Assembly (NCBI RefSeq): GCF_014194695.1
Contig: NZ_JACIAH010000013.1
Coordinates: forward strand, 1-64,000
From: Rhizobium sp. BK399
GTDB taxonomy: Bacteria; Pseudomonadota; Alphaproteobacteria; Rhizobiales; Rhizobiaceae
Reading direction: 5' to 3'
DNA: 64,000 bases
The stretch's first letter is position 1; each line of letters opens with the position of its first letter. Both the position numbers and the translations under genes were made by a program. Under the pieces are notes generated by a model. That model ran no database searches, was not told the DNA's origin, and saw only the letters and a program-made list of their open reading frames with translations. Below are positions 27,199 to 58,768 of this stretch, one piece after another.

Positions 27199-27984
27199 TC
27201 ATTTCAAGATGGTGAAACCTTGATCGGTAAAGAAATGAGCTGCCTTTTCCGACTTCAGGAATTCCAGGTAAGCAGCGGCATCCGGGTTCTTGCTCTCGGA
27301 GAGAACAGCAACCGGATAGATGATCGGCGGGTGCGAATCCGCCGGGAAGGTTCCAACAACCGCAACGCCCGGATCCGCAGATGCGTCGGTCTGATAGACA
27401 ATGCCGTACGGTGCCTCACCGCGCGAGACCAGAGCAAGTGCCGCCCGAACACTCTCGGCCCCGGCTACCTTGCCTTCAACGGAAGGCCACACGCCGAGCG
27501 CCTCAAGCGCCGCTTTGCCGTATTTGCCGGCAGGCACGGACTTGACCTCGCCCATCGCGAGCTTGCCATCACCGAGCAGAGCAGAAAGGTCGAAGCCCTT
27601 CTTGATGTCGACCGGTTTGGCATGGTCCTTGGGTGCGACGAGTACAATCTTGTTGCCGAGGAGATTTGACCGAGTGTCAGCCTTGATCAGGTTCTTCTTT
27701 GCGAGATAGTCCATCCAGTCCAGATCTGCCGACATGAAGATGTCGGCAGGCGCACCGCCTTCAATCTGCTTGGCAAGCGCCGAACTCGCAGCATAGGACG
27801 CAACCGCTTCCTTGCCGCCTTCCTTCGCCCAGGCGGCATTCGCCGCATCAAGGGCGTTCTTCAGGCTGGCTGCCGCGAAAACGGTAACCTTTTCCGCGGC
27901 GATTGCCGGCGTTGCTGCAACACCCAAAAGAACTGCCGAAATGGCAGCGGCGGCAACGTTGATCCATTGGCGGCGACTGTACAT
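27199..27984 (-). CDS. modA: Molybdate-binding periplasmic protein
   Basis: A 261-residue secreted binding protein. The signal peptide covers about residues 1-29 (ends ATPAIAAEK). The core shows KVTVFAAASLKNALDAANAAW, SSALAKQIEGGAPADIFMSADLDWMDYL, and ARSNLLGNKIVLVAP-like TRSNLLGNKIVLV, the standard ModA landmarks. It captures molybdate or tungstate and hands it to ModBC. It is first in the modABC operon; a dyad lies about 35-70 bases upstream. Confidence 0.96.
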   Translation of the reverse strand: MYSRRQWINVAAAAISAVLLGVAATPAIAAEKVTVFAAASLKNALDAANAAWAKEGGKEAVASYAASSALAKQIEGGAPADIFMSADLDWMDYLAKKNLIKADTRSNLLGNKIVLVAPKDHAKPVDIKKGFDLSALLGDGKLAMGEVKSVPAGKYGKAALEALGVWPSVEGKVAGAESVRAALALVSRGEAPYGIVYQTDASADPGVAVVGTFPADSHPPIIYPVAVLSESKNPDAAAYLEFLKSEKAAHFFTDQGFTILK

Positions 27985-28054: not shown

Positions 28055-28280
28055 TCCAGGGCATAACCATTCTGCTTGATCGCAGCACTTCACACATTCG
28101 TGAAGTGCATGGCTGGGCACCACCGTCCACTAAAAGAGCTGGAATTCCGCATGAGGGCGCGCCAAAAACGCGGAGGCTTGGCCGAAATCCTTGAGAATGC
28201 AAAAGAAATGAGCATCACAGAAGCGGCTTCGATCGAGAGATATGCCTTCTACGCATTGCTGCAATGCAATACACTAGCTT

Positions 28281-28306
28281 TAAAAACACGGAAAATGTGG
28301 TACAAC
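28281..28306 (+). promoter_or_regulatory. Candidate promoter of the alpha-r14-like sRNA
   Basis: TTTAAA (-35 region) and TACAAC (-10 region), about 14 bases apart, precede the first sRNA stem by 7 bases. The match to the rhizobial sigma-70 consensus (CTTGAC-N17-CTATAT) is weak, so the boxes are tentative. Confidence 0.3.
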
Positions 28307-28312
28307 ACACTC

Positions 28313-28432
28313 ATCAAACGACGACCTCCTCCTCCCAAAGTCGTTTGATATGGATCGGCAACACTCCTCCTCCCAGTTGTCGATCAAGTTTACGAAGCCC
28401 GACGGATCTCCTCCCCCGTCGGGCTTTTCGTT
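28313..28432 (+). ncRNA. Alpha-r14-family (NfeR1/Smr14-like) small RNA with three anti-SD loops
   Basis: Three consecutive stem-loops occur within 120 bases. The first stem is TCAAACGAC/GTCGTTTGA, the second GATCGGCAAC/GTTGTCGATC (one G-U pair), and the third AAGCCCGACGG/CCGTCGGGCTT, followed by TTTTCGTTT as terminator. Each loop carries a CTCCTCC core; the first two contain CTCCTCCTCCC-like runs complementary to Shine-Dalgarno sequences. This is the architecture of the alphaproteobacterial alpha-r14 sRNA family (S. meliloti NfeR1 = Smr14C2), which pairs with ribosome-binding sites of transporter mRNAs and affects osmoadaptation and nodulation. The 5' end is estimated from family length. It lies between modA and nadD. 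Confidence 0.85.
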
Positions 28433-28454
28433 TGTTCGATCCCGAAAAAACCAA

Positions 28455-29075
28455 CTATTTCAAGGCGTCGCGGATAGCGGTCGAGCTGAGGCCCGAGCGC
28501 GGACCGTGTATGAAGGTCCAGGCAGGTGCGCGCCGTTTCCAGAGGGCTTGAGAATCGTCCTCGTCAATACGAGCGAAATCGAACGTCCGCGCCATCTTCG
28601 ACGAGAGGAACGACAGCGTGGAACCCGGCCGGTCGATGACGGCAATTGGAAACGTGTTGACGATGTCCTGCCAGCGCTGCCACAGATGGAACGTCTTCAG
28701 GCTATCAGCCCCCATGATCCAGATGAAATGGACATGCGGATTTCGCGCCTTGACGCGCGCCAACGTGTTGGCCGTGAAGCTCGTCGCGAAATCACGCTCG
28801 AATGCGGTGATCTTGATCGAAGGATGCCGAGCAAGCCGCTCACTCAAAGCAATCCGCTCGGAAAGCGGCAGCAACTGGCGCCGGTCCTTGAGGGGATTGC
28901 CCGGTGTAACGATCCACCACAACTGATCGAGGCCGAGCCGCTTGATCGCGATTTCGGCAACCAGCGCATGGCCGTCATGCGGCGGATTGAAGGAGCCGCC
29001 GAAAAGACCGACGACCATGCCGCGCTCCGTATGCGGCATGCGAAGATAAGGTCGGTCGATTTCGTCGTTGATCAC
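28455..29075 (-). CDS. nadD: Nicotinate-mononucleotide adenylyltransferase
   Basis: A 206-residue nucleotidyltransferase. GLFGGSFNPPHDGH near residue 23-36 carries the (H/T)xGH ATP site; later WIVTPGNPLKD, FIWIMGADSL and the C-terminal ISSTAIR-like SGLSSTAIRDALK complete the pattern. It adenylates nicotinate mononucleotide in NAD synthesis. Its start is either ATG 29075 or the internal ATG giving MPHTERGMVVGLFGG. It follows proA by one base on the same strand. Confidence 0.95.
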   Translation of the reverse strand: MINDEIDRPYLRMPHTERGMVVGLFGGSFNPPHDGHALVAEIAIKRLGLDQLWWIVTPGNPLKDRRQLLPLSERIALSERLARHPSIKITAFERDFATSFTANTLARVKARNPHVHFIWIMGADSLKTFHLWQRWQDIVNTFPIAVIDRPGSTLSFLSSKMARTFDFARIDEDDSQALWKRRAPAWTFIHGPRSGLSSTAIRDALK

Positions 29076-41309: not shown

Positions 41310-42473
41310 TCAGGCTGTTTCGGCAAAGAGCTCGCGGCCGATCAGCATGCGTCTGATTTCAGAGGTTCCGGCACCGATCTCATAGAGTTTGGCATCGCGA
41401 AGCAGGCGGGCGGCAGGATAGTCGTTCGTATAGCCATTGCCGCCAAGTGCCTGGATCGTTTCGAGGGCCAGAAGCGTTGCCTTCTCCGCGGCATAGAGGA
41501 TGCAGCCGGCAGCATCCTTGCGTGTCGTCTCGCCGCGATCGCAAGCGGACGCCACCGCATAGACATAGGCGCGTGCCGTGTTCATGGTGACGTACATGTC
41601 GGCGAGCTTGCCCTGCATCAGCTGGAATTCGCCGATCGCCTGGCCGAATTGCTTTCGCTCATGAAGATAGGGCACGACGACATCCATGCACGCCGCCATG
41701 ATGCCGATCGGCCCAGCGGAAAGGACGACGCGCTCATAGTCGAGCCCCGACATCAGAACGCGTGCCCCGCCACCGAGAGCACCAAGGACATTTGCCTCGG
41801 GAACCTCACACTCCTCGAAGATCAATTCGCAGGTATTGGAACCGCGCATGCCGAGCTTGTCGAGCTTCGGGCCGGTTGAAAAGCCCTTGAAGGCCTTCTC
41901 GACGAGGAAAGCGGTGATGCCGCGCGGTCCCGCATCGGGGTCTGTCTTCGCATAGACAACCAGCACATCCGCATCCGGGCCGTTGGTGATCCACATCTTG
42001 TTGCCATTGAGAACGTAGCTGTCGCCGCGCTTCTCCGCTCGAAGCTTCATCGAAACGACGTCCGACCCGGCACCCGGCTCCGACATGGCAAGCGCACCGA
42101 CATGCTCGCCGGAAATAAGCTTCGGCAGATAGTTTGACTTCTGCGCTTCCGTTCCATTGCGGCTGATCTGGTTAACGCAGAGATTGGAGTGCGCGCCGTA
42201 GCTGAGCCCAACCGAAGCTGAAGCGCGGCTGATTTCCTCCATCGCAACGCAATGGGCCAAGTATCCTAAGCCGGCGCCGCCATAAGCCTCTTCGGCCGTA
42301 ATCCCAAGCAGTCCCATGTTGCCCATCTCGCGCCAGAGCGGCGCTGGGAAACTGTTGCTGCTGTCAGTCTCGGCTGCCAGCGGCGCGATGCGCTCCGTCG
42401 CGAAACGCCGAACGCTGTCGCGGAGCGCCTCGATCTCGTCCGCCAGACCAAATCTCAAACCACCGGAATACAT
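41310..42473 (-). CDS. ivd: Isovaleryl-CoA dehydrogenase
   Basis: A 387-residue FAD acyl-CoA dehydrogenase, first in the leucine catabolic operon, turning isovaleryl-CoA into 3-methylcrotonyl-CoA. Signatures are [44 protein letters not shown] and the C-terminal [33 protein letters not shown]. The base Glu is in [13 protein letters not shown], at the position used by isovaleryl-CoA dehydrogenases instead of the more C-terminal Glu of short-chain enzymes. Electrons would pass to ETF. Confidence 0.95.
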
Positions 42474-42927
42474 GCCTTCCCTCCCAAGTCCGGCGCGCGG
42501 TTACCGCAGCGTCCGGCATGCGTGTGTCGTTATTTTCCCGTCATTGTTTTCACGCGCGTATCTGGTCGGCAGCTCCTCCACTGCCGGTCGGCCCTATAAA
42601 TTTCGTTGAAGAACGCAAAAATGGCAAGCATTTCCGATCGGCCAGACAATTCTGACCGCCAGCTTGCTCCCGCGAATATCCGATAGATCTGCCGCCGGCA
42701 TATGCCCTTCCTCCCGAGATAGGCAACGACCTGAATACGCGCAGGATCTGTACAGATTCGCGCGAGAACGAAGGGATGCTAGCACCGGGCGCGCGGAATT
42801 TCTGAACCAAGACGGTTCATCTCGCGCATAATTTGGAAAGATTTTGTCGTCGGGACGACGCGTTCAACCGCAAGGGTTGTCCGACAAAGCGGCAGCCCAA
42901 ATGCGGCTGGAACCGATCGTGATGCGG
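42474..42927. other. Intergenic region upstream of ivd
   Basis: 454 bases without a credible gene. It should hold the promoter of the leucine operon, but I cannot pick out boxes with confidence. Small dyads such as TCGTC-GG-GACGA near 42848 and CCGGCAGTGGAGGAGCTGCCG-like sequence near 42570-42590 are present. No MerR-type LiuR regulator gene is nearby. Confidence 0.5.
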
Positions 42928-57838: not shown

Positions 57839-58768
57839 ATGAAGAAATTTATCCTGGGCACTGCCATGGCGCTCGTCCTGTCGACGGCCGCTCACGCTGA
57901 AACGGTCGGCGTCTCTATGGCGCTCTTCGACGACAACTTCCTGACCGTTCTACGCAACGGCATGCAGGACTACGCCAAGACCATGAACGGCGTGACACTG
58001 CAGGTTGAAGACGCGCAGAACGACGTGGCCAAGCAGCAGAGCCAGATCCAGAACTTCATTGCGTCCAAGGTCGACGCGATCGTCGTCAACCCGGTTGATA
58101 CCGACGCTACGGCGGCGATGTCGAAGATCGCAGCCGAAGCCGGCATTCCACTCGTCTACGTAAACCGCGAGCCGGTCAACGTTGACGCTCTTCCGGACAA
58201 GCAGGCTTTCGTTGCTTCGAATGAGCAGGAGTCCGGCACCCTCGAAGCCAAGGAAGTTTGCCGGCTGCTCGGTGGCAAGGGCAAGGCCGTTGTAATGATG
58301 GGTGAACTCTCCAACCAGGCTGCGCGCATGCGTACCAAGGACGTCCACGATGTCGTGGCGACCGATGAGTGCAAGGGCATCCAGATCATTGAAGAGCAGA
58401 CGGCTAACTGGTCCCGTACCCAAGGTTCCGACCTTATGACCAACTGGCTTTCCAGCGGTCTCGAGTTCGATGCTGTCATCTCGAACAATGACGAAATGGC
58501 AATCGGCGCCATCCAGGCACTCAAGGCAGCCGGTAAGGATCTCAGCAAGATCGTCATCGGCGGTGTTGACGCCACCCAGGACGCACTCGCCGCCATGCAG
58601 GCAGGCGACCTCGACGTGACGGTCTTCCAGGATGCAGCAGGTCAGGGCAAGGGTGCGCTCGATGCAGCTCTGAAGCTGGCTAAGGGCGAAAAGGTGGAAA
58701 AGAAGGTCTATATTCCTTTCCAACTCGTCACGCCTGAGAACGTCAAGGACTTCGTCGCGAAGAACTAA
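57839..58768 (+). CDS. ibpA: Sugar-type ABC transporter binding protein, probably myo-inositol/rhizopine
   Basis: A 309-residue periplasmic binding protein with a signal peptide (MKKFILGTAMALVLSTAAHA). The type I binding fold shows GVSMALFDDNFLTVLRNGM, VDAIVVNPVDTDAT, VYVNREPV, and GGVDATQDALAAMQAGDLDVTVFQDA. These features resemble rhizobial IbpA and the related rhizopine-binding MocB more than ribose RbsB. Ligand is inferred from resemblance, from the IolR-type site upstream and from the CUT2 ABC neighbours. GGAGG precedes the ATG. Confidence 0.8.
   Translation: MKKFILGTAMALVLSTAAHAETVGVSMALFDDNFLTVLRNGMQDYAKTMNGVTLQVEDAQNDVAKQQSQIQNFIASKVDAIVVNPVDTDATAAMSKIAAEAGIPLVYVNREPVNVDALPDKQAFVASNEQESGTLEAKEVCRLLGGKGKAVVMMGELSNQAARMRTKDVHDVVATDECKGIQIIEEQTANWSRTQGSDLMTNWLSSGLEFDAVISNNDEMAIGAIQALKAAGKDLSKIVIGGVDATQDALAAMQAGDLDVTVFQDAAGQGKGALDAALKLAKGEKVEKKVYIPFQLVTPENVKDFVAKN

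Follow-up and report, generated by a model that had tools for sequence, protein, structure and literature searches.

The sequence analysed here, referred to as the window, is a stretch of 64,000 nucleotides from Rhizobium sp. BK399. A small RNA (sRNA) gene of the alpha-r14 family (RF02344) occupies positions 28309..28431 on the forward strand of the window, where it is flanked by two genes on the reverse strand, the divergent neighbour modA (27199..27984; TIGR01256, 193 bits, cut-off 62.5) and the convergent neighbour nadD (28455..29075; NF000845, 355.9 bits, cut-off 210), the latter lying 23 bases past the end of the sRNA model. These curated models bear out the location between modA and nadD that an earlier note had proposed from the sequence alone. 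The alpha-r14 match extends over positions 1-123 of the 123 model positions, scores 103.3 bits against a gathering score of 58.8, and begins at 28309, 4 bases to the left of the start at 28313 given in that note. A search of both strands of the window against Rfam yielded the full-length ar14 match and one tRNA as the sole matches.

The forward strand folds into three consecutive hairpins, each carrying an anti-Shine-Dalgarno loop: hairpin 1 at 28313..28349 (loop 28325-28336), hairpin 2 at 28353..28385 (loop 28364-28374) and hairpin 3 at 28392..28431 (loop 28408-28415). The loop sequences CCTCCTCCTCCC, CTCCTCCTCCC and CTCCTCCC, respectively, have an unpaired probability of at least 0.97 in the predicted ensemble, and a CCUCCUCCC-type (CTCCTCC-type) motif is open in all three; in loop 3, CUCCUCCC is unpaired. 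The predicted fold has an energy of -48.6 kcal/mol, whereas shuffled sequences average -25.9 (z -6.75) and 0 of 200 equal it; the single hairpins, folded separately, reach z values of -4.3 to -5.0 each. The succession of three hairpins with CTCCTCC-type loops, which had previously been read from the letters, is thus confirmed.

Hairpin 3 is followed directly on its 3' side by TTTTCGTTTG, an imperfect U-tract. A simple scan of the sRNA locus for a terminator or a sigma-70 consensus promoter reported neither; from its strong stem and TTTTCGTTT tail, hairpin 3 is a putative rho-independent terminator. Since the gap at 28432-28454 measures just 23 bases, hairpin 3 may terminate both nadD and the sRNA. 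On the nadD strand, the corresponding version of hairpin 3 carries GGGAGGAG in its loop, which is complementary to the alpha-r14 loops.

Two other readings of the same stretch were rejected. An sRNA gene on the reverse strand was considered, as the reverse complement also folds, if less exceptionally (z -2.80), but the search of both strands gave no family match there. Likewise, a protein-coding frame of 90 codons at 28076-28348, which spans the promoter and hairpin 1, is not supported: protein matches occur in 18 of 80 nadD loci, the 12 of them listed being 34-60% identical and many covering just a short part, and conservation upstream of the sRNA resides mostly in the promoter boxes and the -10 region. 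Elsewhere in the window, a second match to a home-made alpha-r14 model at 42458-42596 on the forward strand (20.4 bits, E 0.0084) was taken as chance.

Comparison with relatives reveals a fixed set of loops on changing stems. Across 20 aligned copies, the cores of the loops are invariant, with CCTCCTCCC in loops 1 and 2 and TCCTCCC in loop 3, and the stems vary. In the covariation alignment of 61 distinct rows, which was fitted to the model and includes the chance-match row at 42458-42596, 99.0% of cells are paired and changes on both sides are found at 16 of 29 pairs, namely at 6 of the 8 counted pairs in hairpin 1, 4 of 10 in hairpin 2 and 6 of 11 in hairpin 3. Sliding the partners by 1 to 3 columns leaves 21-50% paired and just 2 to 5 pairs with changes on both sides.

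The genomic seat is also constant among close relatives. A NadD scan, from which the best 80 of 211 relatives were kept (63 Rhizobium, 16 unclassified Rhizobiales and 1 Ciceribacter), places alpha-r14 directly beyond nadD and on the opposite strand in 79 of these best 80 loci, and modA beyond the sRNA in the same 79. The 79 hits to the home-made model R1 arise partly by construction, because 16 of the 20 sequences in R1 are nadD-linked; Rfam, applied to a subset of 32 loci out of the 80, found the family in 31 (27 of the 28 without the exact triple motif, as well as L005, L023, L061 and L084). At the nadD locus of Ciceribacter sp. L1K22 (L082), neither alpha-r14 nor modA occurs within 3 kb, and this joint absence may mean that the mod genes and the sRNA were acquired at the same time. 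In a family-wide draw, in which 118 genomes gave a match and the best 30 were examined with a flank of ~1.5 kb, alpha-r14 accompanies nadD only in the 2 of 30 loci from Rhizobium and in 0 of 28 from other genera within that flank. With 79 of 80 loci on the one side and only the genus's own 2 of 30 on the other, the nadD-modA seat is old among the relatives and is not found outside them in the sample.

The family itself is far more widespread than this seat. The genome (6.43 Mb) holds four alpha-r14 copies, one of which is the window copy; the family is present in 60 of 60 genomes sampled from the genus, at 3 to 9 copies each, and in 116 of 121 genomes sampled from the family. Another of the four copies, on contig C11, lies 2.4 kb from tig and adjoins a DUF2157 gene. 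This copy shows an identity of 0.77-0.88 to the first alpha-r14 copies beside DUF2157 genes in the same genus (L099) and in other genera (L204, L205, L207, L211, L214, L215), and at several of these DUF2157-linked loci a second alpha-r14 copy then follows.

The region upstream of the window copy contains a set of candidate promoter elements on the forward strand. Conserved columns point to a putative -10 element TACAAC at 28301..28306 (TGgTAaAAC in relatives), with a predicted start near 28313, and to a candidate -35 region at 28278..28283, of which only TT at 28279-28280 is strongly conserved. By consensus this core promoter is weak, and it is unlike the CTTAGAC-N17-CTATAT published for NfeR1 of Sinorhizobium meliloti in the excerpted text of PMC10746234. 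Further upstream, an LsrB-type box TGC-N7-GCAT at 28243..28256 is one base off the TGCA-N6-GCAT of NfeR1, and an NtrC-type box TGC-N11-GCA at 28198..28214 starts 45 bases upstream of the LsrB-type box (motifs from excerpts of PMC10746234). Relative to the predicted start, the NtrC-type box begins at about -115 and the LsrB-type box at about -70. The corresponding NfeR1 sites, as given in the same excerpts, are an LsrB site TGCA-N6-GCAT at -72 to -60, backed by gel shift, together with an NtrC site, TGC-N11-GCA, that spans -116 to -101 and is backed by gel shift and footprint (PMC10746234).

Both boxes recur in the 80 nadD-linked promoters (the window and 79 others), which are related sequences and not independent draws: TGC-N7-GCA stands in register in 69 of 80, TGC-N11-GCA in 59 and both in 54. 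With any of 15 other gap lengths tried at the NtrC position the count is 0 to 6 of 80, and after shuffling of the letters it does not exceed 3 of 80. In all but one of the 54 promoters with both, the distance between the box starts is 43-45 bases, which matches the spacing of 44 derived from the NfeR1 sites at -116 and -72 (PMC10746234). Among the 59 NtrC-type boxes there are 39 distinct sequences, whose middles are mostly rich in A/T, a diversity that argues against shared ancestry alone. The exact LsrB-type pattern is absent from 11 of the 80 promoters and the exact NtrC-type pattern from 21, and 16 of these 21 share another element, GAAGCGTTTTTTGGGCA or a sequence close to it. The 16 loci with this element are L060, L061, L068, L070-L072, L074-L081 (L073 thus excepted), L083 and L084; we know of no regulator for it.

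The NtrC-type box is largely a property of the nadD-linked copies within the genus. Among 33 genus loci (the four own copies, the window's locus included, and 29 others, taken as the best-scoring copies per genome and thus not a random sample), it occurs in 3 of 6 nadD-linked copies versus 1 of the remaining 27, while the LsrB-type box occurs in 5 of 6 versus 24 of 27. Since both boxes are found in 54 of 80 nadD-linked loci and the other genus copies mostly have the LsrB-type box only, the window copy is, by promoter comparison, the strongest candidate in Rhizobium for an NfeR1-like copy under nitrogen control.

This likeness does not amount to identity with NfeR1. The earlier note had assigned the sRNA to the alpha-r14 family and to NfeR1/Smr14; the family assignment holds by model match, fold and fixed loop cores, but the identification with NfeR1 fails on location. 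NfeR1 (SmrC14) of S. meliloti sits between SMc02051 and tig (PMC2780559, Table 1), the window copy between modA and nadD, and it is another of the genome's own copies that lies on the tig side. In S. meliloti a further predicted RNA, SmelC398, has been placed ~150 bases upstream of NfeR1 (PMC2873474). Where copies stand in tandem in other genera, the second ones show about equal likeness to three of the four own copies, and RNA identity does not appear to single out the window copy as a direct NfeR1 descendant. Nor is the double box a firm mark of such descent. Among ten loci of other genera with second or later copies (L204, L205, L207, L208, L209, L211, L214, L215, L216, L227), only L215 shows the NfeR1 spacing between the two boxes, its second copy bearing TGC-N11-GCA and TGC-N7-GCA 44 bases apart; L209 has both 36 bases apart, and four of the ten have the LsrB-type box alone or another layout. 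That L215 alone has both boxes at 44 weakens the argument from promoter layout to descent.

Potential targets of the CCUCCUCCC-type loops were sought at gene starts. As the copies share their loop cores, this comparison concerns the family in this genome and not any single copy. Throughout the genome, 41 starts have GGGAGGAG before ATG, some of which are expected by chance because the reversed pattern gave 11 matches. Once frames of fewer than 80 codons were dropped (13 of 41 among the GGGAGGAG starts, 11 of 49 among the controls), 9 of the 28 remaining genes code for ABC-transporter parts by Pfam (7 binding proteins and 2 permeases), compared with 1 of 38 control starts with AAAGGAGA (Fisher p 0.0013; a further control match in the window, ribosomal protein L27, would give 1/39). 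Binding proteins alone account for 7 of 28 versus 0 of 38 (p 0.0015). The earlier suggestion that the sRNA silences many ABC-transporter mRNAs is supported as a genome-wide tendency.

Individual candidates fare differently. NfeR1 of S. meliloti silences ntrB and two transporter mRNAs, as stated in excerpts of PMC10746234. In the present genome, the gene just upstream of ntrC has NR(II), that is NtrB, as its best NCBIfam match, with a score below that model's cut-off, and carries CCCGGGAGGCUGCAUG with GGGAGG before the likely ATG; the predicted duplex with loops 1 and 2 amounts to -12.3 kcal/mol, and the 5% tail of random 25-mers lies at -11.6, so that the pairing lends ntrB modest support as a target. 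Three targets had been named beforehand for the window. For ibpA the expectation fails, as no HSP20 (ibpA-type) match exists on the contig, compared with 11 in the genome; the sugar-binding-protein gene at 57839 (Peripla_BP_4) pairs moderately at -12.9, and modA, discussed below, pairs strongly in the window, a strength not conserved across the relatives.

Taken together, we consider it probable that the window encodes a trans-acting alpha-r14 sRNA, which silences mRNAs with strong Shine-Dalgarno sequences under NtrC/LsrB-type control. Family membership, fold, loop conservation, synteny, the boxes as motifs and the target enrichment are observed. The sRNA would be transcribed from its own promoter on the forward strand, from about 28313 to about 28431, and each open CCUCCUCCC-type loop could pair with a strong Shine-Dalgarno sequence (GGGAGGAG) at mRNA starts. 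Pairing is predicted to block ribosome binding and to lower translation, an effect that others have shown for NfeR1 only; the main targets would be solute-binding proteins of ABC transporters, and probably ntrB too. Given that the boxes are laid out as in S. meliloti nfeR1, a putative LsrB-like regulator likely activates the sRNA under stress, and NtrC likely represses it when nitrogen is plentiful.

An unlikely alternative is that the window copy is a genuine alpha-r14 gene that is barely transcribed, and that another of the three other copies does the work. The genome's four copies, the 3 to 9 per genome in 60 genus genomes and the consensus promoter that the scan did not report all accord with redundancy. 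NfeR1 is described as present in S. meliloti in six copies, of which only one was reliably detected by Northern blot (PMC7143759, excerpts), so any given alpha-r14 copy may be silent. A fixed seat in 79 of 80 loci, compensatory stem changes and two boxes in register would, on the other hand, be unexpected for a dead copy.

It is rather improbable that the sRNA instead works locally, chiefly silencing modA, with which loop 3 has an extended match, and so tying molybdate uptake to nitrogen status. The modA start gives the best predicted pairing of 54 window frames, -19.7 kcal/mol with loop 3 as compared with a frame median of -9.6, and values of -16.1 to -17.4 are predicted in L008, L009 and L010, which are close relatives. 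Four other window frames, however, reach -17 or stronger, the frames were defined mechanically so that some are surely not genes, and the energies ignore the cost of opening the stems. Over the 80 loci, the pairing with modA has a median of -11.8 kcal/mol, set against a random 25-mer 5% tail of -11.6, and is weaker than -10 in at least 10 loci. Strong pairing is therefore not kept in relatives, and modA was rejected as a conserved special target.

The convergence with nadD raises the very doubtful scenario that the nadD message reads into the reverse strand of the sRNA, and that its 3' end exposes GGGAGGAG loops, which soak up alpha-r14 RNAs like a sponge. The nadD frame indeed ends 23 bases from the end of the sRNA model, an arrangement kept in 79 of 80 loci, and hairpin 3, when folded as its reverse complement, displays a GGGAGGAG-type loop; yet this is to be expected from any convergent overlap, and the weaker reverse-strand fold (z -2.80) bears no sign of selection. 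The notion that the hairpins merely end converging transcription without any RNA gene is practically negligible. In its favour, hairpin 3 could plausibly terminate both of the convergent units; against it stand the end-to-end match to the family, the conservation of the upstream region and the presence of three hairpins whose loop cores are fixed and nearly identical.

The window copy is, on well-supported grounds, an ordinary member of the published alpha-r14 family (RF02344; RFM SmelA075), two designations that, judging from their descriptions, refer to the same family. It shares with this family the full-length match, the three hairpins, the CCUCCUCCC-type loops, the co-varying stems and the several copies per genome, and no tested feature sets it outside. 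With NfeR1 (SmrC14, SmelC397) of S. meliloti it has in common its size, three loops, and LsrB- and NtrC-type boxes in the same order and spacing, but it differs in seat (modA/nadD instead of SMc02051/tig) and core promoter, and sequence identity does not mark descent. AbcR1 and AbcR2 adopt a fold that differs from the alpha-r14 fold. Their loop motifs are similar, not identical, and aimed at transporter and metabolic mRNAs, and AbcR1 is also activated by LsrB in S. meliloti; AbcR1 and AbcR2 are Hfq-dependent (PMC10746234, in excerpts). An alpha-r14 RNA that resembles NfeR1 would be expected to form a discrete transcript of about 123 nucleotides and to act independently of Hfq. The same anti-Shine-Dalgarno hairpin module is used four times in SmelA099 and twice in RS0680a of Rhodobacter, according to the excerpted text of PMC3927594, as compared with three times in the window sRNA.

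The three-loop design of alpha-r14 RNAs, their multiple copies, targets and promoter logic have already been published (PMC3927594, PMC7143759, PMC10746234, each in part). The nadD-modA seat in Rhizobium together with the NfeR1-type double promoter was not found in the portions of the literature searched; the promoter alignment in Fig. S1 of PMC10746234 may already show the window copy. The added value is modest and consists in indicating which copy is likeliest to fill the role of NfeR1 in Rhizobium, and in correcting the identification with NfeR1 itself. Because the loop cores are shared, the copies likely differ in when each is made, and a conserved nitrogen-type box at a fixed seat singles out one of the four copies of this genome for functional study. 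The window copy also bears on whether the Sinorhizobium NtrBC-NfeR1 feedback loop extends to another legume-symbiont genus.

A further-reaching, and speculative, interpretation is that the NfeR1 role changed its seat in Rhizobium and that the match between loop 3 and modA was gained, such that one RNA would link nitrogen status, ntrBC, nutrient uptake and molybdate uptake; we regard this as unlikely. In such a scheme, the tig side of this genome would keep only another copy, with its boxes further upstream, and the NtrC/LsrB double switch would reside at modA-nadD, a place found only in Rhizobium within the sample, with the extended modA match in this species.

Two peculiarities of other copies may be added. 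In other genera (L204, L205, L207, L209, L211, L214, L215), alpha-r14 copies form pairs or triples ~270-320 bases apart beside a DUF2157 gene or tig, and the first copy of such groups has promoter-like boxes much further upstream of the loops, which suggests a long leader. The own copy on contig C12 (L004:1460-1635) is preceded at once by an extra CCTCCTCCC hairpin, and its predicted fold has four loops, as described for SmelA099.
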